Source: Wenjunlia vitaminophila DSM 41686 | GTDB lineage: Bacteria; Actinomycetota; Actinomycetes; Streptomycetales; Streptomycetaceae | Length of the DNA stretch: 50,941 nt | Reading direction: 5' to 3' | Assembly: GCF_000380165.1 (NCBI RefSeq) | Contig: NZ_KB904677.1 | Location: 1 to 50,941, forward strand | In this document: positions 417 to 24,569 of the stretch, piece by piece | Numbering within the stretch: the first letter of the stretch is position 1 | How the letters are laid out: the number at the start of each line of letters is the position of its first letter | Notes under the pieces: model-generated | Database searches by the model: none | The model's input: only the letters and a program-made list of their open reading frames with translations | Told to the model about the DNA's origin: nothing | Program-made: the position numbers and the translations under genes

Positions 417-914
417 ATGACCGAACTGCGGGTGCTGGGGCCGGACGACTGGCGGGTGTGGCGGGAACTGCGGCTGGCCGCGCTCGCCGAGGCGCCGCAC
501 GCCTTCGGCTCGACGTTGGCCGAGTGGCAGGGCGAGGGCGACCGGGCGGAGCGCTGGCGGAGCCGGCTGGACATCCCCGGCTCGCACAACACCGTCGCCG
601 TTCTCGGTGGTCAACCGGTCGGGATGGCCAGTGGCGTGCCCGCCGACATGCCCCACACCGTGGAGTTGATCTCGATGTGGGTCAGTCCGAAGGTTCGGGG
701 GCGGGGCGTGGGCGGCTCCCTGGTCGGAGAGGTCGAGCGGTGGGCCGGGCGCCTTCGGGCCACGACGCTGCGCCTGTCGGTGATGCCGGACAACGACGCG
801 GCCATCGCCTTCTACGCGCGCCTGGGCTTCGAGGACACCGGGGAGCCGGGCGACCTGGCGCCGGACGGCGTGCGCCGGGAACTGGTCATGGCGAAGGTCG
901 TGGACGCCGCGTGA
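417..914 (+). CDS. GNAT-family N-acetyltransferase
   Basis: This 165-residue protein has the GNAT fold layout. The acetyl-CoA pyrophosphate loop is VRGRGVGGSL at about residues 93-102 (R/Q-x-x-G-x-G/A pattern), and the terminal AIAFYARLGFEDTG motif lies at about 129-142. It would transfer an acetyl group from acetyl-CoA to an amine; the substrate cannot be told from sequence. The ATG at 417 has only a weak ribosome site (GCGGGC). Its last 103 bases overlap, on the opposite strand, the 3' end of the aromatic amino acid hydroxylase gene, so the two genes converge and overlap. It is separated from the IS remnant by a tandem repeat. Confidence 0.85.
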   Translation: MTELRVLGPDDWRVWRELRLAALAEAPHAFGSTLAEWQGEGDRAERWRSRLDIPGSHNTVAVLGGQPVGMASGVPADMPHTVELISMWVSPKVRGRGVGGSLVGEVERWAGRLRATTLRLSVMPDNDAAIAFYARLGFEDTGEPGDLAPDGVRRELVMAKVVDAA

Positions 915-1864
915 CGTCCGGGTCGCGGAGAGTGTTCCGCGGCGGCGCCCGCCACGGGTGACGCCGGTGCGCGCCACAGCTCGGTCCGCAGCACCTCCGG
1001 CTCGAGGCCGAGCCGGTCCGGCGTCCCGTCGTCGAAACCGTCGAGGAACCCCCGCAGGACGTCCTGGAGGTGCTCGGTGGAACGGACGGCGAACCGGACC
1101 GGTTGGTAACCGGTGACCTGGTAGGAGGCCCGGCCCATCGCCGCCGGGTCGAAGGGGCGGAGCTCCGCCTCGTGCAGCCGGGCCAGCTCCCCGTAGGAGG
1201 ACAGCAGTGCGGCCCCGTAGGCCCGCACCGCCCCGCGCTCGTGCACCACGCCGTGCTCCAGGGTGAACCAGTACACCCGGCTGAGCAGTTCGAGCGCCTC
1301 CTCGGTCCGCACCCGGGTGGCGGCCTCGCCCACGGCCCGGTACAGCCCGGCGAACCAGGGGGAGGCCAGGTGGATGCCGTGGCCGCACACGTCGTGGATG
1401 ATGTCGGGTTCCGGCGTGTACAGCGGCACTGCGGGGTGCCGGACGTACTGCACGGCGTGGAACCAGCCGTCCGCCAGCGACCGCAGGAACCGGTCGTTGG
1501 GCACCATCCCCCCGGCCAGGGTGAACCCGAACCCGGTCCGCTGCCGCAGCCCGTCCGCCACCTCCCGGTGCTGCGGAACGTGGTCGGCCGGCAGCGGGGC
1601 GTCCTCCCTCGCCTCCAGGACCAGGGAGCAGGCACGGGCCTCCTGCGCCGGCCACAACGCGGCGCGCACCGTGCGCCACAGCCGGTGCTCCGCGTCACGG
1701 TAGGTGACGTGTGGCGAGGGGCGTCCGACCTGGTGTCCGTCGGCGAGGGCGACCAGCGCGTCCCTGCGCCGCAGGTACTCCGGGTCCACCAGCCCGGGGT
1801 GGTCCCCGGCCGGGCCCAGGTCACCCCGGCCGGAGATCGGTGTGCGGTGACGGTTGCCGACCAT
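812..1864 (-). CDS. Pterin-dependent aromatic amino acid hydroxylase (phenylalanine 4-monooxygenase family)
   Basis: The 350-residue product carries the non-heme iron 2-His-1-Glu triad of the biopterin-dependent hydroxylases: PDIIHDVCGHG gives His157 and His162, and YWFTLEHG gives Glu203. Family members hydroxylate Phe, Tyr or Trp with O2 and a tetrahydropterin; which substrate is used here is not clear. There is no N-terminal regulatory ACT domain, as is usual in bacteria. The ATG at 1864 lies 28 bases after the stop of the eboF-like gene, so it looks like the last gene of the ebo operon. The catalytic domain appears to end near residue 305. The remaining low-complexity tail overlaps the convergent GNAT gene and may not be native. 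Confidence 0.85.
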   Translation of the reverse strand: MVGNRHRTPISGRGDLGPAGDHPGLVDPEYLRRRDALVALADGHQVGRPSPHVTYRDAEHRLWRTVRAALWPAQEARACSLVLEAREDAPLPADHVPQHREVADGLRQRTGFGFTLAGGMVPNDRFLRSLADGWFHAVQYVRHPAVPLYTPEPDIIHDVCGHGIHLASPWFAGLYRAVGEAATRVRTEEALELLSRVYWFTLEHGVVHERGAVRAYGAALLSSYGELARLHEAELRPFDPAAMGRASYQVTGYQPVRFAVRSTEHLQDVLRGFLDGFDDGTPDRLGLEPEVLRTELWRAPASPVAGAAAEHSPRPGRHAASTTFAMTSSRRTPSGARSPGSPVSSKPRRA

Positions 1865-1892
1865 GCGCAGCCGAGTACCCGCTGTCCGACGA

Positions 1893-3287
1893 TTACCCCA
1901 CGCCGAGCCCGGCGAGGCCGAGCAGCATCTCCTTGACCTCGGTGGCCTCCACGGGGCCGGTGACCGCGTCCGCGGCGGAGCACAGGATCACCGGCCCGTC
2001 GTCGGGGTCGTCCGGGAGACGGCCGTGGCTGCCCTGGATGGGTGACGGGTCCAGCGGCACCACCGCCATCCGGTAGCGCATGCCGAGTTTCTTGCGGGCC
2101 AGCGCGGTCGCCGCCCTCACCTTCACGTAGGGGTCGTGGGGGTCGAGGAAGAGTTCGACCGGGTCGTACCCCGGCTTGCGGTGGATCTCCACGAGCTGGG
2201 CGAAGTCGGGCGCGTGCGCGTCGTCCAGCCAGTAGTAGTAGGTGAACCAGGCGTCCGGCTCGGCGACCGCGACCAGCTCCCCGGACCGGGGGTGGTCCAG
2301 GCCGTGCTTCTTCTTGCCCTCGTCGTCCAGGAGGGTCTCGATCCCGTCCAGGCCGGCCAGTGCCGCGCGGGTGGCGGCCAGGTCCTCCGGACGGCGGACG
2401 TAGACGTGGGCGATCTGGTGGTCGGCGACCGCGAACGCCCGCGAGGCCATCGGGTCCAGGTACTCCATGCCGTCCTGGGTGTGCACCTCCAGCAGCCGCG
2501 CCCGGCGCAGCGCCCGGTTGATGTCCACCGCACGGGTGACGCGGGTGATCCCGTACTCGGAGAGCGCCACCACGGTGCGGCCCTCGGCCTGCGCGTCGTC
2601 GAGCAGGGGGGCGAGGGCGTCGTCCAGTTCGGTGGCCGCCCGGTGGGAACGCGGGTCGTCCGGGCCGTAGCGCTGGAGGTCGTAGTCGAGGTGGGGGAGG
2701 TAGCACAGGGCGAGGTCGGGGCGGCGGGTGGCGACGACGTGCCGGGTGGCGTCCACGATCCACCGGGAGGAGACGATGTCCGCCCCGGGCCCCCAGAAGT
2801 GGAACAGCGGGAAGGTCCCGAGCTTGGCGGTGAGCTCGTCGTGCAGCTCCACCGGCCGGGTGTAGCAGTCGGGTTCCTTGCGCCCGTCGGCGTAGTAGAT
2901 CGGGCGGGGCGTGACGGTGACGTCGGTGTCCGCGCCCATCGCGTACCACCAGCAGATGTTGGCCACGGTGTAGCCGGGGTGGATCCGGCGGGCGGCGTCC
3001 CACAGCTTGTCGCCGGACACCAGGCCGTTGTGCTGGCGCCACAGCAGCACCTCGCCGAGGTCGCGGAAGTACCAGCCGTTGCCGACGATGCCGTGTTCCG
3101 CGGGCAGGGTGCCGGTGAGGAACGTGGACTGGGCCGCGCAGGTCACCGCGGGCAGCACGGTGCCCAGGGGGGCGCTCGAGCCCTCGCGGGCCAGGCGGGA
3201 CAGCCGCGGCATGTGCTCGAGCAGCCGCGGGGTGAGGCCGACGACGTCCAGGACGAGGAGCGGTCGGGGGGTCGGTCCTTCGGTCAT
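1893..3287 (-). CDS. eboF: EboF-like alkaline phosphatase / nucleotide pyrophosphatase family protein
   Basis: A 464-residue protein of the type I phosphodiesterase/nucleotide pyrophosphatase fold. It begins with the metal-binding start PLLVLDVVGLTPRLLEHMP. The nucleophile region is PAVTCAAQSTFLTGTLPAEHG, with Thr in VTCAAQ, and the later metal sites are YLPHLDYDLQRYG and DHQIAHVYV. No signal peptide is seen, so it is predicted to be cytoplasmic. In cyanobacterial ebo clusters a pyrophosphatase-like protein occupies this role, plausibly removing phosphate or diphosphate from an intermediate. The ATG at 3287 overlaps the eboE stop by 4 bases (ATGA), showing translational coupling. Confidence 0.85.
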   Translation of the reverse strand: MTEGPTPRPLLVLDVVGLTPRLLEHMPRLSRLAREGSSAPLGTVLPAVTCAAQSTFLTGTLPAEHGIVGNGWYFRDLGEVLLWRQHNGLVSGDKLWDAARRIHPGYTVANICWWYAMGADTDVTVTPRPIYYADGRKEPDCYTRPVELHDELTAKLGTFPLFHFWGPGADIVSSRWIVDATRHVVATRRPDLALCYLPHLDYDLQRYGPDDPRSHRAATELDDALAPLLDDAQAEGRTVVALSEYGITRVTRAVDINRALRRARLLEVHTQDGMEYLDPMASRAFAVADHQIAHVYVRRPEDLAATRAALAGLDGIETLLDDEGKKKHGLDHPRSGELVAVAEPDAWFTYYYWLDDAHAPDFAQLVEIHRKPGYDPVELFLDPHDPYVKVRAATALARKKLGMRYRMAVVPLDPSPIQGSHGRLPDDPDDGPVILCSAADAVTGPVEATEVKEMLLGLAGLGVG

Positions 3288-4453
3288 GGCGACTCCTTCA
3301 GGCCCAGCTCGGTCAGCAGGTCCCGGGCGAGGCCGAGTTCGGCGGCGATGCCGTCGGCGAGTTCGGCCGGGGTGCGGGGGCGCAGCGCGGGCGGCAGCGC
3401 CTGCCAGGTGTAGGTCTCCACCTCCAGGTGCCTGGTGCGCGGGACGGGTCCGGTGAGCAGCCGGGTCAGCGTGTCCCTGAGCACGGGCAGCGTGGAGGTG
3501 AGCGGGGCGGCCGGCGAGGCGTGCAGCGGGACGTGGACGTGGGTGCGCCACGGGCCGGTGTCCGGGAGGGCGTCGCCGGCCACGGCCTGGTCCAGGTCGT
3601 CGGTGCCGCACAGGCCGGAACCGGTCAGGGTGCGGGTCTGGTGGAGGAAGCGGGGCTCGTGGAACGCGGCCAGCGCGCGGCGCACCTCGGGCCGGTCGGG
3701 GTGTTCCGCGTGCAGGGCCGCGGACGCCTGGACCTTGACCACCGGGACACCAGCGGCGTCCAGCGCGGCGAGGGCGGCGCCGGGGTCCTCGAAGGACGTG
3801 GCCAGGTGGCAGGTGTCCACGCAGATCCCGATCTTCGGGTGGGCCACCGCGGTCAGCGGGGCGATGGCGTCCCCGGTGGTCTCCACCACGCAGCCCGGCT
3901 CGGGTTCGAGGCCGATCCGGACGCTGCGGCCGGTCCGCTGTTCCAGGTCGTCGAGGCGCTCCCCCAGGGTGGTCAGCGCGGCCCTGGCCGCGTCGCTCCG
4001 ATCCTGGTCGAAGGGGGTGCGCCAGGCGATGGGCAGGGTGGAGACGGTGCCCTCGGTGACGTCGTCGGGGAGCAGTTCGACCAGCAGGTGCGCCAGGTCG
4101 GTGGTGTACCGCAGGCGCTCGGGTTCGGTCCAGTCCGGGCGGTAGACCCGGTGCTTGACCTCGGCGGCACCGAATCCCCGGTAGGGGAAGCCGTTGAGGG
4201 TGACGACCTCGAGTCCGCGCCGGTCGAGTTCGCCGCGCAGCGCGGCCAGGGCCGCGGGGTCCGCCCTGAGGGTGCGGGCCGCGGTGTCGGCGAGCCACAG
4301 GCCGACGCCCAGGCGTTCGACGCCCAGGCGCAGGCGCACCGGTTCGCAGTGCTCGGCGAGCTGGGCCAGCACCCCGTCGAGGGTCTCCGCCGGGTGGACG
4401 TTGGTGCAGTACGCCAGGTGCACGGTGGAGCCGTCGGCGTGGGTGAACCGCAT
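3284..4453 (-). CDS. eboE: EboE-like metabolite traffic protein (TIM barrel, AP-endonuclease-2 fold)
   Basis: A 389-residue protein that matches EboE in its opening, AYCTNVHPAETLDGVLAQL, and in the following LNGFPYRGF region. Probable metal-binding residues of a xylose-isomerase-like barrel are visible: Glu in IGLEPEPGCV, Asp and His in GICVDTCHLATS, and His in HVHVPLH. EboE is named for its role in the ebo cluster, where deletion affects export of a scytonemin precursor; its chemistry is not settled. It starts 3 bases after the eboB stop and overlaps eboF by 4 bases. No signal peptide or membrane segment is visible. Confidence 0.87.
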   Translation of the reverse strand: MRFTHADGSTVHLAYCTNVHPAETLDGVLAQLAEHCEPVRLRLGVERLGVGLWLADTAARTLRADPAALAALRGELDRRGLEVVTLNGFPYRGFGAAEVKHRVYRPDWTEPERLRYTTDLAHLLVELLPDDVTEGTVSTLPIAWRTPFDQDRSDAARAALTTLGERLDDLEQRTGRSVRIGLEPEPGCVVETTGDAIAPLTAVAHPKIGICVDTCHLATSFEDPGAALAALDAAGVPVVKVQASAALHAEHPDRPEVRRALAAFHEPRFLHQTRTLTGSGLCGTDDLDQAVAGDALPDTGPWRTHVHVPLHASPAAPLTSTLPVLRDTLTRLLTGPVPRTRHLEVETYTWQALPPALRPRTPAELADGIAAELGLARDLLTELGLKESP

Positions 4454-4456
4454 GGT

Positions 4457-5308
4457 TCACTCCCCGCCGCGGAGTATGGAGTTGCCCTCGTGCTGGACGT
4501 CGGCGGGCTCGGCGCGCTCCAGGTCGAGCCGTCCGCTGAGCCCGTAGAACGCGACCGGGTTGCGCCACAGCACCTGGTCCACCACGTCCTCGTCGAAGCC
4601 GGCCCTGAGCATGGCGTCGCCGACCTTCCGGGTCTTGAGCGGGTCGCTCTTCCCCCAGTCCGCCGCGGAGTTCACCAGTACCCGCTCCGGGCCGTGGCTC
4701 TTCAGGATGGCGACCATGCGGTCCTCGTCCATCTTGGTGTCGGGGTAGACGGAGAAGCCCATCCAGCAGCCGGCGTCCTTGGCCTCGCCCACCGTGGTCT
4801 CGTTGAGGTGGTCGAGCAGCACGTGTTCCACCGGGAGCGCGGACTCGGCGACCACGTCCAGGGTGCGGCGGAGGCCGGCGAGCTTGTCCCGGTGCGGGGT
4901 GTGCACCAGGGCCGGCAGGCCGTGGTCGGCGGCGAGCTGCAACTGGGTGGCGAGGGCGGTGTCCTCGGCGGGGGTCATCGAGTCGTAGCCGATCTCTCCG
5001 ACGGCCACCACGGAGTCCTTCACCAGGTACCTCGGCAGTTCGTCCAGGACGGGCACGCAGCGCGGGTCGTTGGCCTCCTTGGGGTTCAGCGCGATGGTGC
5101 AGTGGTGGACGATCCCGTACTGCGCGGCCCGGAACGGCTCCCAGCCCAGCAGCGCGTCGAAGTAGTCCACGAACGACTCCGGGGAGGTGCGGGGCTGGCC
5201 CAGCCAGAACGCCGGTTCGACCACGGCGCGGACCCCGGCGTCGTACATCGCCTGGTAGTCGTCGGTGGTCCGGGACGTCATGTGGATGTGCGGGTCGAAG
5301 ATGCGCAT
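4457..5308 (-). CDS. eboB: EboB-like TatD-family metal-dependent hydrolase
   Basis: The 283-residue protein has amidohydrolase/TatD metal ligands in order: DPHIHM at residues 5-10 (HxH), VAVGEIGYD (Glu), ALVHTPHRDK (His), LLDHLNE (His) and NSAADWG (Asp). It is predicted to be a cytoplasmic hydrolase of the ebo pathway with unknown substrate. Its ATG at 5308 shares one base with the TGA of eboA (TGATG), and eboE starts 3 bases downstream. The order eboA-eboB-eboE-eboF is kept as a block. Confidence 0.85.
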   Translation of the reverse strand: MRIFDPHIHMTSRTTDDYQAMYDAGVRAVVEPAFWLGQPRTSPESFVDYFDALLGWEPFRAAQYGIVHHCTIALNPKEANDPRCVPVLDELPRYLVKDSVVAVGEIGYDSMTPAEDTALATQLQLAADHGLPALVHTPHRDKLAGLRRTLDVVAESALPVEHVLLDHLNETTVGEAKDAGCWMGFSVYPDTKMDEDRMVAILKSHGPERVLVNSAADWGKSDPLKTRKVGDAMLRAGFDEDVVDQVLWRNPVAFYGLSGRLDLERAEPADVQHEGNSILRGGE

Positions 5309-5976
5309 CAGGACTCCTCGGCCTTCCCGGCCACGGCCAGGACGCGGGACAGGTCATCGGGGACGGGGCGGCCGGCGGCGGTGCGCTCGCTGGCGTAGTC
5401 GCCCAGCATGCGGGCGAGTTCGCCGTCGCCGTGGGCGCGTTCCTCGAGGGCGGCGACGGCGTCCACCGGGACGCCGGTGAACAGGCACTTCAGCACCGCG
5501 TGCCGCCAGGCGTGGGCGTCGAGGTGACGTCCGGCGTAGGGGCCCACGGCGGCGGCGACCAGGCGGGTGTCGTTGGTCCGCAGCGCGTCCTCGACCAGCG
5601 CGAGCCCGTCGGCGGGCGCGAGGTCGAGGTGGTCGAGGGCCAGCAGCACCGCACGGCGCTCCGCGGCGGTGCCCTGCCGGTAGAGGCGGGCGACCGCGGT
5701 GGCGTCCGGGCGGGCGGTGCGCAGCAGCAGCACGCGGGCCTGGTCGGCGGCGTCCTCGGCGCCGCAACGCCGCCCGGCCTCGGCGAAGCGCAGCTCCCAC
5801 GCGGGCAGTGCCCGACCGGGTGGGGCGCCGGCTGGCGCGGCGGCGGCTTCGGCGGCGTCGGTCAGGGCGCCGTCCAGCCAGGCGTTCGCCGGCGGCGCGA
5901 GACACGCCAGGAGGGCGGCGCGCAGCTCGTCCACGGTGGGGGGCGGGGAGCTGGGTGATGCGGTGGTGTGGGTCAC
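5308..5976 (-). CDS. eboA: EboA domain-containing protein
   Basis: A 222-residue, alanine-rich, mostly helical protein. It matches EboA in layout: an N-terminal VDELRAALLACL segment, the WLDGALTDA region, the LYRQGTAAERRAVLLALDHL repeat-like core and a C-terminal HAWRHAVLKCLFTGVPVD. EboA is a marker protein of ebo clusters with no known catalytic motif; HEAT-like helical packing is likely. The GTG start at 5976 overlaps the upstream gene by 4 bases (GTGA). No signal peptide is visible. Confidence 0.85.
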   Translation of the reverse strand: MTHTTASPSSPPPTVDELRAALLACLAPPANAWLDGALTDAAEAAAAPAGAPPGRALPAWELRFAEAGRRCGAEDAADQARVLLLRTARPDATAVARLYRQGTAAERRAVLLALDHLDLAPADGLALVEDALRTNDTRLVAAAVGPYAGRHLDAHAWRHAVLKCLFTGVPVDAVAALEERAHGDGELARMLGDYASERTAAGRPVPDDLSRVLAVAGKAEES

Positions 5977-6815
5977 CTGGTGCCTCCGTTTCGCAGGAAC
6001 CGCAGGGAGCGTTCGGCGAGTTCGGGGCCGGCGTGGGAGTGCCGGGGCAGTTCGACGACGGCCAGCCCCCGGTACCCGACGTCGGTCAGCGCCTCGAGCA
6101 CCGGCGGGAAGTCGATCTCTCCGTCACCGAACGGGAGGTGCTCGTGGACACCTCGGCGCATGTCCTCGAGTTGGACGTGGCGCAGCCACGGCGCGGCGGA
6201 CCGCACGCACTCGGCCGGCGGCTCGGGCTCCAGGCACTGGCAGTGGCCGATGTCCAGGGTGAGTCCGAGCGGGTCGGGGTCGCCGAGGTCGGCGCGGAGC
6301 CGGTGGAAGTCGGCGACGGTGGCCAGCAGGTGGCCGGGTTCGGGTTCGACCGCGACGGGGATGCCCGCCGCGTCGGCCGCCTCCAGGACGGGGGGCAGCG
6401 CCTCGCCGAGGCGTTTCCACCCGGTGCCCGGGTCGGTGCCTTCGGGCAGGACACCGCTGAAGCAGTGCACCGCGTGCGCCCCGAGGTCGGCGGCGACCTG
6501 CACGGCCCTCAGCAGCAGCCGGACGCGGGCCGCCCTGGCGTCCGGGTCCGGGTCGAGCAGGGAGGGCCCGTGCTTGCGCCGGGGGTCCAGGACGTAGCGG
6601 GCCCCGGTCTCCACGGTGACCTCGAGGCCCAGGTCGGCCAGCCGTCCGGCGACGACCCGGGTGCGGTCGGCGAGCCCGGGCGCCATCGGGTCCAGGTGCA
6701 TGTGGTCGAGCGTCAGGCCGACCCCGTCGTAGCCGAGGTCGGCGAGGAGCGCCAGGGCGTCGTCGAGTCGCAGGTCGGTGAGCCCGTTGGTGCCGTACCC
6801 CAGCCGCGGGCTCAT
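5973..6815 (-). CDS. Sugar phosphate isomerase/epimerase-like TIM-barrel protein of the ebo operon
   Basis: This 280-residue protein is a xylose-isomerase-like TIM barrel. Metal-ligand positions are visible in VAVEPEPGHLL (Glu), LTLDIGHCQCL (Asp, His), HVQLEDM (His/Glu) and VVELPRHSH (Glu). Such proteins isomerise or epimerise sugars, or act as dehydratases. Here it sits between the EboC-like prenyltransferase and EboA, overlapping both by 4 bases. It is distinct from EboE, which shares the same fold. It may act on the cyclitol formed by the synthase at the head of the operon; this is inferred from context only. Confidence 0.8.
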   Translation of the reverse strand: MSPRLGYGTNGLTDLRLDDALALLADLGYDGVGLTLDHMHLDPMAPGLADRTRVVAGRLADLGLEVTVETGARYVLDPRRKHGPSLLDPDPDARAARVRLLLRAVQVAADLGAHAVHCFSGVLPEGTDPGTGWKRLGEALPPVLEAADAAGIPVAVEPEPGHLLATVADFHRLRADLGDPDPLGLTLDIGHCQCLEPEPPAECVRSAAPWLRHVQLEDMRRGVHEHLPFGDGEIDFPPVLEALTDVGYRGLAVVELPRHSHAGPELAERSLRFLRNGGTR

Positions 6816-7987
6816 GTGGGGCTCACCTTCCGGGACAGCCGCCGGGCCAGCGGCACCAGCCCGGCGACGGCGACGGCGGTCCCGGCGGCTCCTGACCGGG
6901 CGGCGAGCGCGGCCTGGAGCGGGATCATCGCCCGGATGCCGCCGCCGACCGCCCGCTGGGTGAGCGGCGGCGAGGGGTTGAGCACGGCGTGGAACAGCGG
7001 TTTGGCGGCGGTGGCCGCGTAGCCCAGGGCCAGCGCCGCCCGGGCCAGGTCCGGGACGGAACGTGGCCGGCCTGGCGACCGCCGGACCGTGGCCGGGACG
7101 GTGTGGGCGCCGGGTGGTGCCGCGTGGTCACGGGCCGACGTGCGGGGGCGGTGCCGGCTGGTCCACGCCCCGAGGCCGGCGGTCACCCCCAGCGCGGCGA
7201 GCGGCGTCACCGGGGAGCCCCCCTGGGTTTCCCGGCGGGACACCAGGGTCACCGCGGCGGTGTGCGCGCCCAGGGCCGCCGCCGGGCCGAGCGCGCCGCG
7301 CCATCCCGCGGTGCCGGCCGGCGTTGCGCTGCTCCGCGCGGGGCGCGCGGTGGCCGCGGCACCCAGCAGGAGGTCGAGCGAACGGGCCGTGGCCATCACC
7401 GCCGGACCCGCGGGGGTGTGCTTCAACCGCAGGTCGTAGGCCCAGACCGTGCCGGCGAGCGCGGTGGCGAGGACCGTGGCGGAACGCCCGGCCCGGGAGG
7501 CGAGGGCCAGTCCGGCGACGGTCAGGCCCACTCCGGCGGCGAGCGCCGCCCGCGGGGCGATCCGGCCGGAGGGGATGGGACGGTGGGGACGTTCCGCGGC
7601 GTCCTCGTCCCGGTCCGCCCAGTCGTTGAGGGCCATCCCCGCCTGGTAGAGACACAGGGAGGCGGCGACGGCCAGCCCGGTGCGCCGGTTCGGTCGGCGC
7701 CCGGCGGCGGCCGCCCCGGCGAGGGCGTCGCCGGGCACCGTGAACAGCGCGGGCAGCCTGAGCAGTTCGGCCCAGTCCCGGAGCCTGACGGCGCGGGAAC
7801 GGGACGCGGTGCCCGGCGCCGGCCCGCTCGCGGCGGTGGCGGGCCGCCCGGGCTCACGCCCGGGGGGTCTGGCCGGCGAGGCGTGGGCGATCAGGGGGCG
7901 CTGGGGCCTGGTGGCGGCCGGGGCCACCCAGGTGGGGCGGCGGCTCCGCCGCGCCGCCGCGTTCAGGGCGTCACGGACCCGGTTCAC
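6812..7987 (-). CDS. eboC: EboC-like UbiA-family prenyltransferase
   Basis: The 391-residue protein has a UbiA core starting near residue 68 (RDWAELLRLPALFTVPGDAL). It carries the diphosphate-Mg motif NDWADRDED followed by RPHRPIPSGRI, and a second Asp motif, YDLRLKHTPAGP. Several hydrophobic membrane segments are seen. The family transfers an isoprenoid chain from its diphosphate onto an acceptor in the membrane. The first ~65 residues are Arg/Pro/Ala-rich and unlike the core, so they are either a cytoplasmic extension or a sign that translation starts later. The GTG start overlaps the upstream stop (GTGA). Confidence 0.85.
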   Translation of the reverse strand: MNRVRDALNAAARRSRRPTWVAPAATRPQRPLIAHASPARPPGREPGRPATAASGPAPGTASRSRAVRLRDWAELLRLPALFTVPGDALAGAAAAGRRPNRRTGLAVAASLCLYQAGMALNDWADRDEDAAERPHRPIPSGRIAPRAALAAGVGLTVAGLALASRAGRSATVLATALAGTVWAYDLRLKHTPAGPAVMATARSLDLLLGAAATARPARSSATPAGTAGWRGALGPAAALGAHTAAVTLVSRRETQGGSPVTPLAALGVTAGLGAWTSRHRPRTSARDHAAPPGAHTVPATVRRSPGRPRSVPDLARAALALGYAATAAKPLFHAVLNPSPPLTQRAVGGGIRAMIPLQAALAARSGAAGTAVAVAGLVPLARRLSRKVSPT

Positions 7988-9150
7988 CGCGCCTCCTCCG
8001 TGTCGTTGCCGGCGGGCCGGTCGTCGCCGAGCCGTCCGGCGAAGTCCAGCAGGGCGCCGTACTGCTCGGCCAGGGCGGAGGGGCCGCCGTCCGGGTCCTT
8101 GAAGTAGAAGCCCAACTCGGGACGCGGTCCGGTCAGTCCCACCTCGTGGGCGCGGGCCACCAGCCGGACCAGGTCCAGGACCAGGGGCGCGGCCAGCGCG
8201 GAGTCGCAGCCCTGCCAGATGGTCTGCAGGACCATCCGGGTGCCGAGGAAGCCCTCGAAGGCGACGTGGTCCCAGGCGGTCTTCCAGTCGCCCAGGGCGG
8301 GGACGTCGTCGATGTGCACCTCGCCCTGCGGCACCGAACCGAGGTTGTCGTGCAGCACCCGGTCCTTGCCGGCGTTCTTGGCCGCGGCGGCTCCCGGGTC
8401 GGCCAGCGCCGCGCCGTCCCCGCCGCCCAGCAGGTTCGTCCCCGACCAGGCCCGTACGGCGAGCGCCCGCTGCGCGAACATCGGCGCGAGCACCGCCCGC
8501 AGCAGCGTCTGCCCGGTCTTGCCGTCCCTGCCGGCGTACGGCACTCCGCTGGCGGCGGCGGTGTCGGCCAGTCCCGGGTGGTGCAGGCCGGTGGACGGGG
8601 TGAAGTTGACGTAGCCGCAGCCGGCGCGGAGCGCGGCCGCGGCGTACAGGGAGCTGGCCGGCAGCCGCGGGTCGGTGGCGGCGGGCGCCGGCTCCGTTGA
8701 CGCGACGTTGACCACGACGGCGCGGGCGAGGCGGTGCCGTCGGACGAAGTCCTCGATGTCGGCTGAGAGCGCGGCGACGAGTTCGGGCTCACCACGGGTG
8801 TCGTCGCCCGGGCGGACACCGGGGCGTATCTCGGCGTCGGCAGCGCGGAGTTCGTCCCGCACCGCGGACGGGAGGTCGTGCGGGAGCACACCGGCGCCGG
8901 CGAGCTCCTCGGCGCGCTTGGGCAGTGGACCGTTGGCGGTGTCGTGCCCCCCGAAGACCAGTGAGGACAGGGCCGGCAGTCCGCTGCCGGCGAAGGGCGG
9001 GGTCTCGGTCACGAGACCGGTGGGCGGGTGCAGGCCCGAGGCCGTCGCGGCGCATCCGGTGACCACCGTGGTGGCGACCGAGCCGCGGGCCCCGATGAGC
9101 CAGACACCGGTCCGGTGTTCGCTGTCGGGTGTGTCGGCGGGAAGAGACAC
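7984..9150 (-). CDS. myo-Inositol-1-phosphate-synthase-family protein heading the ebo operon
   Basis: A 388-residue member of the inositol-3-phosphate synthase family. The NAD-binding loop GVWLIGARGSVATTV lies near the N-terminus, and the family-typical DWKTAWDHVAFEGFLGTRM and QTIWQGCDSALAAPLVLDL regions lie near the C-terminus. The family converts glucose-6-phosphate to inositol-phosphate by NAD-dependent oxidation, enolisation and ring closure. In cyanobacterial ebo clusters a dehydroquinate-synthase-like EboD supplies a cyclase; here this unrelated cyclase takes that place. The GTG start at 9150 has AGGAGG six bases upstream. It may serve the pathway rather than general inositol supply. 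Confidence 0.85.
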   Translation of the reverse strand: MSLPADTPDSEHRTGVWLIGARGSVATTVVTGCAATASGLHPPTGLVTETPPFAGSGLPALSSLVFGGHDTANGPLPKRAEELAGAGVLPHDLPSAVRDELRAADAEIRPGVRPGDDTRGEPELVAALSADIEDFVRRHRLARAVVVNVASTEPAPAATDPRLPASSLYAAAALRAGCGYVNFTPSTGLHHPGLADTAAASGVPYAGRDGKTGQTLLRAVLAPMFAQRALAVRAWSGTNLLGGGDGAALADPGAAAAKNAGKDRVLHDNLGSVPQGEVHIDDVPALGDWKTAWDHVAFEGFLGTRMVLQTIWQGCDSALAAPLVLDLVRLVARAHEVGLTGPRPELGFYFKDPDGGPSALAEQYGALLDFAGRLGDDRPAGNDTEEAR

Positions 9151-9387
9151 GACCAGCCTCCTGGGTACGTCACTTCACGGGCGGATCCATCGTCAGGGGA
9201 CGCTGAGCACCCCGCCCGGACGCCCGGCCGAGGGGTGCACGACCCCTGGAGCCGCTAATCGAGTCGTTTGCTGACTGGGTAGGGTATAGCGGTCACCACG
9301 ACTCGGGATACGGCGGTTTCTGTAACCATCCGCGTACCGGGCGTGACAGTTTCCTGGTGGGGGTCGCCCGGCCGCGGGGGGCGGGAC
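9151..9387 (-). promoter_or_regulatory. Leader/promoter region of the ebo operon with an 8-bp inverted repeat
   Basis: This gene-free stretch precedes the GTG at 9150. CGAGTCGT at 9260-9267 is the exact inverse of ACGACTCG at 9298-9305. The 30-base interval contains, read on the minus strand, TATACCCTACCC, the most promoter-like AT stretch in the gap. It could be a regulator site or an RNA stem-loop over the promoter; no clear -35 box is seen. Confidence 0.4.
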
Positions 9388-9418
9388 GGCCCCGCCGGGC
9401 ACGGGTCCTGGCGGGGCC
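9388..9418 (-). terminator. Hairpin terminator after the ScyD/ScyE-like gene
   Basis: GGCCCCGCC (9388-9396) pairs perfectly with GGCGGGGCC (9410-9418) around a 13-base loop. It lies about 55 bases beyond the stop of the ScyD/ScyE-like gene and ahead of the ebo promoter region. There is no U-tract in the minus direction, as is common in actinomycetes. Confidence 0.5.
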
Positions 9419-9471
9419 TTCGTCGCTGGACGGTGCGTCACCGCGGGAACGTCACCGCGGCGGACAGGCCG

Positions 9472-10563
9472 TCAGGGCGTGACCCGCAGCAGCTCACCGC
9501 CGAGACCGGCGCCCTTGTTGGAGACGTAGACGGCGCCGTCGGGCCCGAGGTCCATGCCCGTGGGGCCCTGGAGCTGGTCCCCGGTGGCGAGCTCGGTGGT
9601 CTGCCGGGTGAACAGGTTGATCTTGTAGATCGCCCCGGGCAGCGGCGGGCCCTGTACGAAGCCCTTGGTGTGGGACAGCGCGTACAGGTTGCCCGTGCCG
9701 TCCAGCTCGATGTCGATGATGTTGGACAGCCCGTCCACCAGCACCTGCGGTTTCTGACCCGGGACCACCTTCCAGATGCGGCTGGCGCCGGTCCGCAGAC
9801 CGCTCATGTCGGCGACGTAGACGGTGCCGAACACGCTGCGGGCGATGCCGCTCGGCACGGCCTCCACCGACTCACCGGACGGCAGGGTGTGCTTCGGCAG
9901 CGCGAACGCCGTGCTGGTGCCGCTGTTGGAACCGCGCACCACCGTGTTGGCGCCCGCGTCGGTGACCAGGTAGTCGCCCGTCCAGGTCTTCTCGAACTGC
10001 CAGGGGTTGCTGAAGACCTCACCCCCGTCGGGGTTGTTGCGGGTCTCGTGGTCGGCGAGGTCGGCGATGACCTTCCCGTCCCTGGTGTCGTACAGCGTGC
10101 CCAGCCTGGCCGCGTCCGGGCCGAGCTGCGCCCGCTGGTCCGTGGTGCCGCCGAAGCCGGTCAGCACGGTGTAGCCACCGGCCGGGTTCGGCACCACCTG
10201 GCTGGGTCCTGACACCTCGACGGTGCCGCCGGAGCTGTCCGGCAGTTTGATGACGGACGGCAGGCCCTCGAGCACGCGCCCCTTCTGGTCGCCCCTGACC
10301 CGGTAGATGGCACCGGTCGGACCGGCGCAGGCGCGGCCGGGCTCGCACCCGGTGGGGCTGCCCGCCCCCGCCTCGGCGACCAGCACCGTCCCGTCGCCCA
10401 ACGCGGTCACGTCCCGCGGGTTCTGCAGACCGCTCGCGACGACCTCGACGCTCACGCCCCGCTGGTCCGCCTGTGCCTGACCGGTGAGCAGCGGCGCCGT
10501 AACGCTTCCCACGGCGAGCGCCGCCACCGCGGCCCCCCTGAAGGACCTGCCTGATCTCGACAT
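9472..10563 (-). CDS. Secreted ScyD/ScyE-family beta-propeller protein
   Basis: A 363-residue protein with a classical signal peptide: RSGRS, then a hydrophobic AAVAALAVGSVTAPLLTG, then an AQA cleavage site near residue 32. It has an NHL-like propeller with repeated LGDGTVLVAEAG, GGYTVLTGFGG, GDYLVTDAGANTVV, GTVYVADMSG and DGAVYVSNKG blades. The ScyD/ScyE family is named from the cyanobacterial scytonemin cluster, where these periplasmic proteins are of uncertain function. The ATG at 10563 has a GGGGGAG ribosome site. It sits just upstream of the ebo operon on the same strand, but a terminator hairpin and 321 bases separate them, so it is probably its own unit. Confidence 0.85.
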   Translation of the reverse strand: MSRSGRSFRGAAVAALAVGSVTAPLLTGQAQADQRGVSVEVVASGLQNPRDVTALGDGTVLVAEAGAGSPTGCEPGRACAGPTGAIYRVRGDQKGRVLEGLPSVIKLPDSSGGTVEVSGPSQVVPNPAGGYTVLTGFGGTTDQRAQLGPDAARLGTLYDTRDGKVIADLADHETRNNPDGGEVFSNPWQFEKTWTGDYLVTDAGANTVVRGSNSGTSTAFALPKHTLPSGESVEAVPSGIARSVFGTVYVADMSGLRTGASRIWKVVPGQKPQVLVDGLSNIIDIELDGTGNLYALSHTKGFVQGPPLPGAIYKINLFTRQTTELATGDQLQGPTGMDLGPDGAVYVSNKGAGLGGELLRVTP

Positions 10564-12894: not shown

Positions 12895-13308
12895 TCAGCC
12901 GCCTCCCAGACCAGGCAGCGTCCGCACCCCCTGGGCGGTGAGGGTCACCGCCTCGGGCGCGCCGGCGTCGATGGTCAGCGACAGGTCGTCCGACGGCCAA
13001 CTGCCGGCCAGCACCGCCAGCGGGACCCGGTGGTACCGCTCGATCTGCGGCAGCGCCTGGGCCATGCGCACCTCCGAGGTGAACACCGGCACCAGCCGAG
13101 CGCCGTCCTGCTGTTCGAACACCGGGAGGCTCACGATGTGCTGCTCGCCCTCGGGCGGTTCGTGGCCCTCGGGGTCGCCCGGGTCGGGCAACAGCACCTC
13201 GCTGGTCGCCAGGGTGAACAGCGCCTCCTCGTCCGCGCCGTTCTCCGCGAGGGCCCGCAGCGCCTGCTGGGCCGAAGGAGGGGTGTCGCCGGTGGGGGAA
13301 TCCGTCAT
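12895..13308 (-). CDS. SseB-family protein
   Basis: A 137-residue protein with the SseB pattern. An N-terminal helical ALRALAENGADEEALFTLATSEVLLP is followed by a strand-rich VSLPVFEQQDGARLVPVFTSEVRMAQALP, which closely follows the family's signature of reading out values from a named segment. SseB-type proteins were named from serine sensitivity in E. coli; in actinobacteria they are often linked to type VII secretion, but no such genes lie here. The ATG at 13308 is the only sensible start. It lies 195 bases upstream of the P450 start on the same strand. Confidence 0.75.
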   Translation of the reverse strand: MTDSPTGDTPPSAQQALRALAENGADEEALFTLATSEVLLPDPGDPEGHEPPEGEQHIVSLPVFEQQDGARLVPVFTSEVRMAQALPQIERYHRVPLAVLAGSWPSDDLSLTIDAGAPEAVTLTAQGVRTLPGLGGG

Positions 13309-13435
13309 GGCATGTCCAATCGTCGGGGCGCCGAGCGGCGGTTCCGCTCCGCGCCGGAGCGGCCCGCCTACCCGCGATGCCCTCAGCCATGCACCCGACG
13401 GCGGACCTCACGGCCCCGGCCGCCCACCCGGCGGG

Positions 13436-14254
13436 TCAGTCGGACGCCCCGGCCCGGCCCTGGGGCGGACCCTGGGTGAACGAGCCGTGACGCCCGGCCC
13501 CCGCGTTGAACCTCGCCACGCCCCGGTCCATCCCGGCCGCCAGCGACACCTGTCCGTGGCGCGCCTCCGCGGCGAGCGCCCGCGGCTCGTCCATGCCCCA
13601 CTGACCGAGCAGCGACAGCCGGTCCTGCCGCATGCAGGTCTGCGGGAACGCGGCGAGCTCGGCGGCCAGCTCCTGTGCCGCGGCCAGCGCCCGACCCGCC
13701 GGGACCAGCCGGTTGGCCAGCCCCATCGCGTACGCCTCCGTCGCCTCGACCGGCCGGCCGGTCAGCACCATGTCCATCGCCCGGCTCTGGCCGATCAACC
13801 GGGGCAGCCGGACCGTGCCGCCGTCCACCAGGGGCACCCCCCAGCGACGGCAGAGCACCCCGAAGACGGCGGTGGCGTCCGCCACCCGCAGGTCGCACCA
13901 GAGCGCCAGTTCCAGGCCGCCGGCGACGGCGTGGCCGCTGACGGCGGCGATCACGGGTTTCCCCAGCCGCATCCGGGTGGGCCCCAGCGGGCCGTCGCCG
14001 TCCAACCGCACCCGGTCCCCGTCCGGTGCTCCCAGCGCCTTGAGGTCGAAACCGGCGCAGAAGGTGCCGCCCGCCCCGTACAGCACCGCCACGCTCGCCC
14101 CGTCGTCCTCGTCGAAGGCACGGAAGGCGTCGGCGAGCGCCCGCGCGGTGGGGACGTCCACCGCGTTGCGCACCCGACGGCGGTCGAGCACCACGGTGGT
14201 CACGGGACCGGCCCGACGCACGGTGACCGCCTCGTCGTTCACCTCGTCGTCCAT
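13436..14254 (-). CDS. Enoyl-CoA hydratase/isomerase family protein
   Basis: The 272-residue crotonase-fold protein shows the oxyanion-hole segments GGTFCAGFDLKAL and AAVSGHAVAGGLELALWCDLRVA. The catalytic-region segment FGVLCRRWGVPLVDGGTVRLPRLIG has Asp in place of the second Glu (LVDGG). It would act on acyl-CoA thioesters by hydration or isomerisation. The substitutions of the hydratase Glu pair suggest that the reaction may not be classical hydration. The ATG at 14254 starts MDDEVNDEAVTVRR. The open frame upstream continues far into the opposite strand of the next gene but is not coding. Confidence 0.88.
   Translation of the reverse strand: MDDEVNDEAVTVRRAGPVTTVVLDRRRVRNAVDVPTARALADAFRAFDEDDGASVAVLYGAGGTFCAGFDLKALGAPDGDRVRLDGDGPLGPTRMRLGKPVIAAVSGHAVAGGLELALWCDLRVADATAVFGVLCRRWGVPLVDGGTVRLPRLIGQSRAMDMVLTGRPVEATEAYAMGLANRLVPAGRALAAAQELAAELAAFPQTCMRQDRLSLLGQWGMDEPRALAAEARHGQVSLAAGMDRGVARFNAGAGRHGSFTQGPPQGRAGASD

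Positions 14255-23531: not shown

Positions 23532-24569
<1,038 letters not shown>

Follow-up and report, generated by a model that had tools for sequence, protein, structure and literature searches.

In this study, we describe an ebo-like operon in a stretch of 50,941 nt (hereafter, the window) that covers positions 1 to 50,941 of contig NZ_KB904677.1 of Wenjunlia vitaminophila DSM 41686, a member of the Streptomycetaceae within the Actinomycetota. In this operon, a cyclase of the myo-inositol phosphate synthase (MIPS) family takes the place that the AroB-like cyclase EboD has in most other phyla, and the MIPS type of ebo cluster is common in the phylum. The replacement of EboD by an unrelated cyclase had been proposed in a first-pass annotation of the window and is borne out by the comparison of the clusters. 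On balance, we favour the view that MIPS takes over from EboD in the making of a prenylated cyclitol, which perhaps serves as an export carrier.

The comparison was based on 50 EboE loci of the phylum (39 from the family and 11 others, the window being excluded), each of about 19 kb, in which the genes were called using hidden Markov models (HMMs) derived from the proteins of the window and homologues of these, MIPS being counted as present above 100 bits. Here, the phylum is Actinomycetota, the family is Streptomycetaceae, and loci and genomes are labelled L and G, respectively. MIPS was present in 34 of the 39 family loci and in nine of the 11 others (43/50), whereas EboD was found in none of the former and in only one of the latter, L045 (1/50). 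In other phyla, EboD was present in 76 of 80 loci and MIPS in none, these being the best 80 of at least 585 loci, ranked from an EboD-type EboE, so that the EboD type is favoured. The two cyclases never occurred in the same locus in either set. The MIPS-EboC-EboA neighbourhood, a search for which the first-pass annotation had suggested, was recovered within the order MIPS-EboC-TIM-EboA-EboB-EboE-EboF on one strand in 41 of the 50 loci, which is far beyond chance.

A hidden EboD was sought with the dehydroquinate (DHQ) synthase model PF01761 (36 and 11 genomes) and with an EboD-derived HMM (all loci), and none was found in the 49 phylum loci other than L045. The EboD-derived HMM scored the AroB-type loci at 217 bits at most, L045 at 567 bits and 75 of the 80 other-phylum loci above 500 bits; the remaining five comprised one EboD fragment at a contig edge (102 bits) and four loci with none (L083, L101, L103 and L126). 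PF01761 recovered the EboD of L045, directly before EboB, as a positive control, and this protein matched the NCBIfam AroB-like model NF004852 with 563 bits. L045 has no MIPS, TIM barrel or recognised EboA, and its genome has no match to the MIPS model PF07994. The counter-case considered in the first-pass annotation, an EboD homologue elsewhere in the conserved neighbourhood, did not materialise: PF01761 detected no DHQ-synthase homologue in the ebo neighbourhood of the window, and the only one in the genome, on contig C13, is presumed to be AroB. Moreover, in a tree of 88 EboF sequences, the MIPS and EboD types were split by a single branch with a Shimodaira-Hasegawa-like approximate likelihood ratio test (SH-aLRT) support of 100, and L045 was placed with the EboD type. 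The rows were 48 sequences from the phylum (the window among them, and five whose locus has no intact MIPS), 39 from other phyla (two of them, L083 and L126, without EboD in the locus) and L045.

The seven-gene core and its proteins

Eight predicted open reading frames on the minus strand were confirmed with family models (Pfam and NCBIfam) over the window, and the layout given in the first-pass annotation, with overlaps of 1-4 bases and gaps of 3-28 bases, agrees with the coordinates and the models. Of the eight-gene operon described there, seven genes form a conserved core, while the eighth, an aromatic amino acid hydroxylase, lies outside the conserved unit, with no match in the 50 other EboE loci. 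The features are as follows:

7984-9150, minus strand: MIPS family cyclase, first gene of the seven-gene core (PF07994 125 bits, PF01658 100 bits)
6812-7987, minus strand: UbiA-superfamily prenyltransferase of the SCO3242 family, EboC counterpart (PF01040 79 bits; NF045897 387 bits)
5973-6815, minus strand: xylose-isomerase-like TIM barrel, ketose-3-epimerase-like (PF01261 154 bits)
5308-5976, minus strand: EboA, predicted all-helical repeat protein (NF035938, EboA_domain, 162 bits)
4457-5308, minus strand: EboB, TatD-like metal-dependent hydrolase (PF01026 46 bits; conserved as a neighbour)
3284-4453, minus strand: EboE, second TIM-barrel protein (NF035939 424 bits, cut-off 250)
1893-3287, minus strand: EboF, type I phosphodiesterase / alkaline-phosphatase-like hydrolase (PF01663 228 bits)
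812-1864, minus strand: aromatic amino acid hydroxylase, local neighbour (PF00351 193 bits)
9472-10563, minus strand: ScyD/ScyE-family protein, 321 bases upstream of MIPS (NF033206 230 bits, cut-off 80)
9151-9471, minus strand: intergenic region between the ScyE-like gene and MIPS, presumed core promoter region (GC-rich hairpin at 9388-9418)

By its coordinates on the minus strand, the core runs MIPS, UbiA, TIM barrel, EboA, EboB, EboE and EboF, with successive overlaps of 4, 4, 4, 1 and 4 bases and a gap of 3 bases between EboB and EboE. The start codon of EboF at 3287 is preceded by GGAG, which gives the overlap of 4 bases with EboE; EboF and the hydroxylase are 28 bases apart. Sequences resembling ribosome-binding sites were found ahead of most of the genes, the hydroxylase having no clear one. 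A consensus search found no promoter and one terminator-like site, on the opposite strand, and the hairpin at 9388-9418 was not clearly better than shuffled sequences (z -1.9; 9 of 200 shuffles fold equally well).

The EboD-type clusters that are described, in the parts of PMC5133447 consulted, from eustigmatophyte plastids, Bacteroidota, Cyanobacteria and other groups encode homologues of the EboA, EboB, EboE, EboF and UbiA of the window, and HMMs built from MIPS-type proteins detected EboB and EboF homologues in most EboD-type loci. In contrast to these clusters, the window has no EboD, has MIPS and an extra TIM barrel, and has a UbiA of the SCO3242 family; its order, MIPS-C-TIM-A-B-E-F, also differs from the mostly A-B-C-D-E-F of the EboD type.

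The nearest solved relative of the window MIPS is that of Archaeoglobus fulgidus (1u1i, 8.6e-58), with which it has the active-site-type residues in common, the window copy differing in that it lies in an ebo operon. It has a nicotinamide adenine dinucleotide (NAD)-binding motif of the GARGSVATT type and scores only 35 bits with the mycothiol-type MIPS model TIGR03450. In an alignment of 50 MIPS sequences, of which six come from outside ebo operons and the remainder from the window, L169 and 42 of the 50 loci, N239, K258, K262, K290, D316 and K351 were invariant in all 50, and these six active-site residues were also kept in six named plasmid sequences. We take K258, K262, K290 and K351 to be the catalytic lysines; in the A. 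fulgidus entries 3qvw and 3qvx, the residues aligned with K262 and K351 are different. The window MIPS belongs to a clade of 19 rows (99/100), outside which lies the copy from the same-genus genome G008, the ebo operon of which is 45-68% identical to that of the window; transfer and differential loss are both possible explanations of this placement. The first-pass annotation had also considered that this MIPS might be the genome's only inositol supply, which was rejected, since there are two further MIPS genes, one of the mycothiol type (contig C35, 727 bits) and a third copy on contig C3. The latter, within L043:2602-6517, is a second Archaeoglobus-like MIPS that is 76% identical to the window MIPS.

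The UbiA protein of the window scored above the cut-off of the SCO3242 family (NF045897, 387 bits, cut-off 260), which is a sister family of EboC, and below the curated EboC cut-off (NF035940, 128 bits, cut-off 250). By these NCBIfam cut-offs, all five of the other MIPS-type UbiA proteins tested were assigned to SCO3242 and fell below EboC, the two EboD-type proteins tested from other phyla were assigned to EboC and fell below SCO3242, and the UbiA of L045 was below both. The motif NDxxDxxxD..RPIPSG is common to the window UbiA and the EboC of EboD-type clusters; in the window (alignment row L073) it reads NDWADRDED..RPHRPIPSG, the first aspartate-rich motif being kept. Judging from these profiles, the split between the subfamilies is what a changed prenyl acceptor would be expected to give. 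The family is named after Streptomyces coelicolor SCO3242. According to the consulted part of PMC3610822, SCO3242 and SCO3243, which have adjoining locus tags, are counted among the calcium-dependent antibiotic genes and encode a myo-inositol phosphate synthase together with a putative transferase. They resemble the first two genes of the operon described here and may stand outside the synthesis of the antibiotic.

Within the phylum, 45 of the 50 loci had a TIM barrel scoring above 100 bits, compared with none of the 80 elsewhere. Its AlphaFold model (pLDDT 96) is a barrel of the ketose-3-epimerase type, and its best VIA-align match was a D-tagatose 3-epimerase-like protein (Z 31.7, 2.2 A over 257 residues); however, the 50 best entries lie at Z 27.5-31.7 and therefore do not point to any one substrate. 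The alignment of the family showed acidic and histidine residues that are invariant. EboA scored above the cut-off of the EboA_domain model (162 bits, cut-off 50) and below that of the stricter EboA_family model (57 bits, cut-off 320). Its AlphaFold model (pLDDT 95) has a HEAT-like arrangement, with which Foldseek found no match at E 0.001 or better, while the best VIA-align matches were helical-repeat proteins (Z 10.0, 5.4 A over 188 residues), a score within the warning range of the tool for repeats. Going by the model, EboA is a helical repeat protein and perhaps a scaffold.

Distribution of the MIPS type and exchange with EboD

Among the 41 ordered loci, L014 retains only a fragment of MIPS (98 bits) and in L028 the gene is split over two frames. 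The other nine include the EboD-type L045. MIPS is absent from L007, L020 and L034, the last of which starts at a contig end and has its MIPS on another contig (L169) beside a part of EboC. L008 and L011 come from the same genome, each a partial cluster, and make up the full set between them, and L021, which has no TIM barrel, is accompanied by a second, complete cluster in the same genome (L013). L041 is a lone EboE, and L054 consists of EboC and EboE with broken frames and has neither MIPS nor the TIM barrel.

EboE was found in 36 of 101 family genomes and in 27 of the 396 genomes of the phylum sample, 16 of these 27 being also in the family set. PF07994 was above its cut-off in 36 family genomes, which comprised 35 of the 36 EboE-positive genomes and one of the 65 EboE-negative ones (G093); this co-occurrence gave a Fisher p of 8e-25, uncorrected for relatedness. 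The sole EboE-positive family genome without a match, G028, carries a lone EboE. In G099 and G082, the intact MIPS is located outside the ebo operon, which itself has none. In the phylum sample, 26 of the 27 EboE-positive genomes had a PF07994 match, the exception being the EboD-type genome G390; the G336 match differs in kind from the others and lies away from the ebo locus.

The nearest named relatives of the window genes were found on Streptomyces plasmids (EboE 74% and MIPS 75% identity). One of these, NZ_CP024990, has all seven genes in the same order as the window, annotated in turn as inositol-3-phosphate synthase, SCO3242 family prenyltransferase, sugar phosphate isomerase/epimerase, EboA domain, TatD, EboE and nucleotide pyrophosphatase/phosphodiesterase. 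Among named plasmid records, 48 matched EboE and 41 matched MIPS. In Streptomyces, Embleya and Nonomuraea, 28 of the 32 EboE records also had MIPS a few kb away on the same strand; of the four without it, one is cut by the end of the record, L182 and L183 have EboB-EboE-EboF, and L184 has EboE alone. The lone eboE of L184 (7450-10173, a plasmid of Streptomyces sp. NBC_01244) lies amid type II polyketide synthase and flavin adenine dinucleotide (FAD)-monooxygenase genes, beside a methyltransferase gene. In L174, the entire ebo operon comes after genes for an FAD-monooxygenase and a methyltransferase.

The 16 EboE plasmid records from other groups included only one with MIPS, that of Gemmatirosa kalamazoonensis (Gemmatimonadota, L175); the remaining 15 were absent from the MIPS records, and the one that was read, Salipiger, is of the EboD type. 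L175 has EboB-EboF-EboC-MIPS-TIM on one strand, EboE nearby on the other strand and no EboD. In smaller trees, its EboF was placed among EboD-type rows, beside Salipiger (SH-aLRT 92), and its EboB grouped with L045 and L075 (SH-aLRT 99, with a warning of long branches). By these placements, the cluster of Gemmatirosa is apparently an independent exchange of the cyclase. MIPS and EboD have probably been exchanged more than once, because the EboF and EboB of L175 fall among the EboD-type clusters. A single exchange was accordingly rejected, as the addition of Gemmatirosa breaks the perfect sorting of the clusters by cyclase.

Five haloarchaeal plasmids had a MIPS match, and a MIPS gene set was found in three of them (Halobaculum, Natronococcus and Halocatena) and not in the two from Halomarina. 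In these three (L176, L177 and L180), TatD-TIM-UbiA-TIM and MIPS-EboF-like hydrolase genes are grouped, and EboE, EboA and EboD were not recognised in the clusters. Haloarchaeal EboF and EboB were on long branches outside both bacterial types in the smaller trees, and the one UbiA tested was below both cut-offs (EboC, the best, 197 bits; SCO3242 161 bits). The gene set is perhaps a simpler archaeal relative of the ebo system. With the plasmids of Gemmatimonadota and haloarchaea, a confinement of the MIPS type to the phylum of the window was rejected.

ScyE-family and isoprenoid neighbours

The ScyD/ScyE-family gene at 9472-10563, on the same strand as MIPS, is absent from the first-pass annotation. 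Among 46 ebo-positive genomes, NF033206 gave 21 matches in 11. Such a gene lies beside MIPS in G000, G006, G058, G062 and G099 and beside EboF in G038 and G050, and all seven are on the same strand and at most about 330 bases from the neighbouring match; in G099, the MIPS with this neighbour is far from the ebo operon. All seven family genomes with any ScyD/ScyE gene, including that of the window, have one beside MIPS or EboF, and 0.012 matches would be expected within 2 kb of the operons. G149, G171, G193 and G336 also have genes of this family, none of them beside ebo. The N-termini of the proteins, in the window and in others, resemble signal peptides by eye. In the cyanobacterial EboD-type loci L087, L094 and L107, a ScyD/ScyE-related protein is encoded 1.7-3.0 kb before EboA. 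Similarly, the ebo and scytonemin export system of Nostoc punctiforme has ebo genes with a ScyE-family protein close by, as described in the consulted part of PMC6282210, the difference being that the window has MIPS in place of EboD. By analogy, the neighbour may echo, to a limited extent, the scytonemin-ebo link of cyanobacteria.

Additionally, a polyprenyl-diphosphate synthase was encoded in nine of the 50 loci versus 0.6 expected (214 PF00348 matches in 346.5 Mb), with a P of 1e-8 if the loci are independent and of 0.002, as a rough count, over 16 genera. The gene lies upstream of MIPS on the same strand in L017, L042 and L044, after EboF in L046 and L047 (same strand) and L053 (opposite strand), and about 1.3-1.4 kb past EboF in L032, L034 and L035. 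Two of the three longer frames were checked, and both (L032:4258-6345 and L035:12665-14728) are single open frames in which IspH, the enzyme of the last step of the methylerythritol phosphate (MEP) pathway, is fused to the polyprenyl synthase; L034 and L170 are likened to them by similar length only. The lone MIPS of G099 has a polyprenyl synthase gene 1.3 kb away that is similar in length to the fused ones. None of these polyprenyl synthase neighbours reaches the NCBIfam cut-off for a particular chain length. In L045, the only EboD-type locus among the 50, a type 2 isopentenyl-diphosphate isomerase (13122-14162) is encoded directly 3' of EboF.

Upstream in the window, on the same strand, lies a cytochrome P450 gene (11494-12789), the product of which is weakly related to pentalenolactone synthase; its homologue group spans five of the compared loci, the window included. 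A tRNA gene at 23532-23605 was the sole Rfam match in the window at gathering thresholds.

Possible product and alternative readings

The idea of a prenylated cyclitol was published in 2016 for the EboD-type clusters (PMC5133447, consulted in part). In the open-access article text searched, no MIPS-type ebo cluster is described, and the word "inositol" has no occurrence in the main text of PMC5133447, PMC6282210 or PMC9235831. What appears to be new is the MIPS-type ebo in a large group of the phylum, its isoprenoid and ScyE partners, the exchange in Gemmatimonadota and the haloarchaeal gene set.

From the gene identities and their order, the mutual exclusion of the cyclases, the MIPS residues and the neighbours, we infer the following reactions, product and export role. 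Glucose 6-phosphate would be cyclised by MIPS, giving inositol 1-phosphate or a closely related compound, and the TIM barrel would adjust the stereochemistry of either the sugar or the cyclitol. In the membrane, the cyclitol would receive its prenyl chain from the SCO3242/EboC prenyltransferase, and EboF would remove a phosphate, with EboB and EboE modifying the product and EboA serving as a scaffold. As was proposed for the cyanobacterial ebo, the prenylated cyclitol could help a metabolite to cross the membrane and reach exported enzymes, for example the ScyE-like protein encoded alongside. A comparable route is that of BE-40644, in which, according to the consulted part of PMC5133447, a sugar-derived cyclitol is likewise joined to a prenyl chain by a UbiA protein (farnesylation); its cyclase, however, is a sedoheptulose 7-phosphate cyclase rather than MIPS. 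A wider view, which we hold only tentatively, is that ebo clusters in general provide a prenyl-cyclitol carrier that moves metabolites to exported ScyE-type enzymes, the ring coming either from EboD (sedoheptulose type) or from MIPS, which were exchanged repeatedly.

Several observations weigh against a prenylated cyclitol made with MIPS. The conservation of the MIPS residues is also compatible with products other than inositol 1-phosphate, as in the relative 6k96. The replacement of EboD by MIPS is not chemically exact, because enzymes of the EboD type lose phosphate during cyclisation (PMC5133447, in the part consulted) and MIPS retains it. Six of the 50 loci (L007, L014, L020, L034, L041 and L054) have neither cyclase in a usable form, no polyprenyl synthase was found in 41 of the 50 within the fetched stretch, and the ScyE neighbour is limited to seven genomes of one family. 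The Streptomyces plasmids L182, L183 and L184 have no MIPS or EboC within 9 kb, and therefore neither the cyclitol step nor the prenyl step is needed for some Ebo proteins to work. Furthermore, MIPS is not specific to ebo in the wider phylum, because PF07994 matches 62 EboE-negative genomes of the phylum sample (88 minus 26), mostly with higher scores.

A further such observation concerns the prenyl acceptor, as an EboC homologue from EboD-type Flavobacteria farnesylates quinolines (8-hydroxyquinoline-2-carboxylic acid) in vitro, according to the consulted part of PMC9235831. It is conceivable, though unlikely, that the core makes an aromatic compound prenylated by the UbiA enzyme, for which the hydroxylase supplies or modifies the acceptor and to which MIPS and the TIM barrel add a sugar-like decoration. 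The closeness of the hydroxylase gene to EboF, the alignment of its HxxxxH and E metal ligands with those of solved enzymes and the presence of a pterin-4a-carbinolamine dehydratase in the genome agree with this, as does the lone EboE amid polyketide and monooxygenase genes in L184. At the Phe/Tyr switch position, which in tyrosine hydroxylase is the D of the YQDQTYQ stretch, the hydroxylase has V, and presumably this residue favours phenylalanine. However, the quinoline activity belongs to the EboD-type subfamily, the hydroxylase gene has no clear ribosome-binding site, and among families common to at least five of the 50 loci (these families being partly identified) no gene of an aromatic pathway was recognised. 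Moreover, a hydroxylase is encoded in 15 of the 101 family genomes, including that of the window, and lies near ebo in the latter only. The pathway role that the first-pass annotation had suggested for the hydroxylase was thus not upheld, and its membership was rejected on conservation, though it may be co-transcribed locally. By its distribution, the hydroxylase is probably a local neighbour outside the conserved system.

Equally improbable, in our judgement, is that the operon serves mainly inositol or sugar metabolism, in which case the ebo genes would adjust or export a carbohydrate and a prenylated cyclitol would not be made. Carbohydrate genes are indeed frequent neighbours: a large protein of the PKD/CBM type is encoded near MIPS-type operons in 23 of the 50 loci (e.g., L005, L010 and L012), a TIM-barrel protein with a signal-like N-terminus in 15, a ROK protein in six and a Gfo/Idh/MocA oxidoreductase in four. 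In one haloarchaeon, genes for a TIM barrel and a pyrroloquinoline quinone (PQQ)-dependent sugar dehydrogenase come after the MIPS cluster, and the C3 MIPS of the window's genome adjoins a levoglucosan-dehydrogenase-like oxidoreductase and a ROK-family protein. The near-constant UbiA, the isoprenoid-synthesis neighbours and the exchange of MIPS and EboD would, however, be left unexplained. Least probable is that the MIPS-like enzyme performs other chemistry, such as the formation of a five-membered or differently oriented cyclitol phosphate from another sugar phosphate that the TIM epimerase delivers. In favour of this, 6k96, a MIPS relative with a different product, is named in PDB as a five-membered-cyclitol-phosphate synthase, and the ketose-3-epimerase-like TIM barrel, which accompanies MIPS in Gemmatimonadota and haloarchaea as well, could produce a ketose phosphate of an unusual kind. 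Against it, the window MIPS matches 6k96 at only 3.2e-11 versus 8.6e-58 for its closest solved relative, a MIPS, and keeps the aligned active-site residues.

For the prenylated cyclitol that we favour, the ring of the MIPS-type product is predictable, as the chemistry of the MIPS family is well known, and the apparently repeated exchange between unrelated cyclases is indirect evidence for a cyclitol as a building block of the ebo product. The ScyE-family neighbour ties the MIPS version to the export model of cyanobacteria. If the wider view given above is true, the MIPS-type clusters would yield a class of lipid that is new, a prenylated inositol (phosphate), and its makers would include about one third of the Streptomycetaceae, some Gemmatimonadota, haloarchaea in a simpler form and, probably, model Streptomyces.

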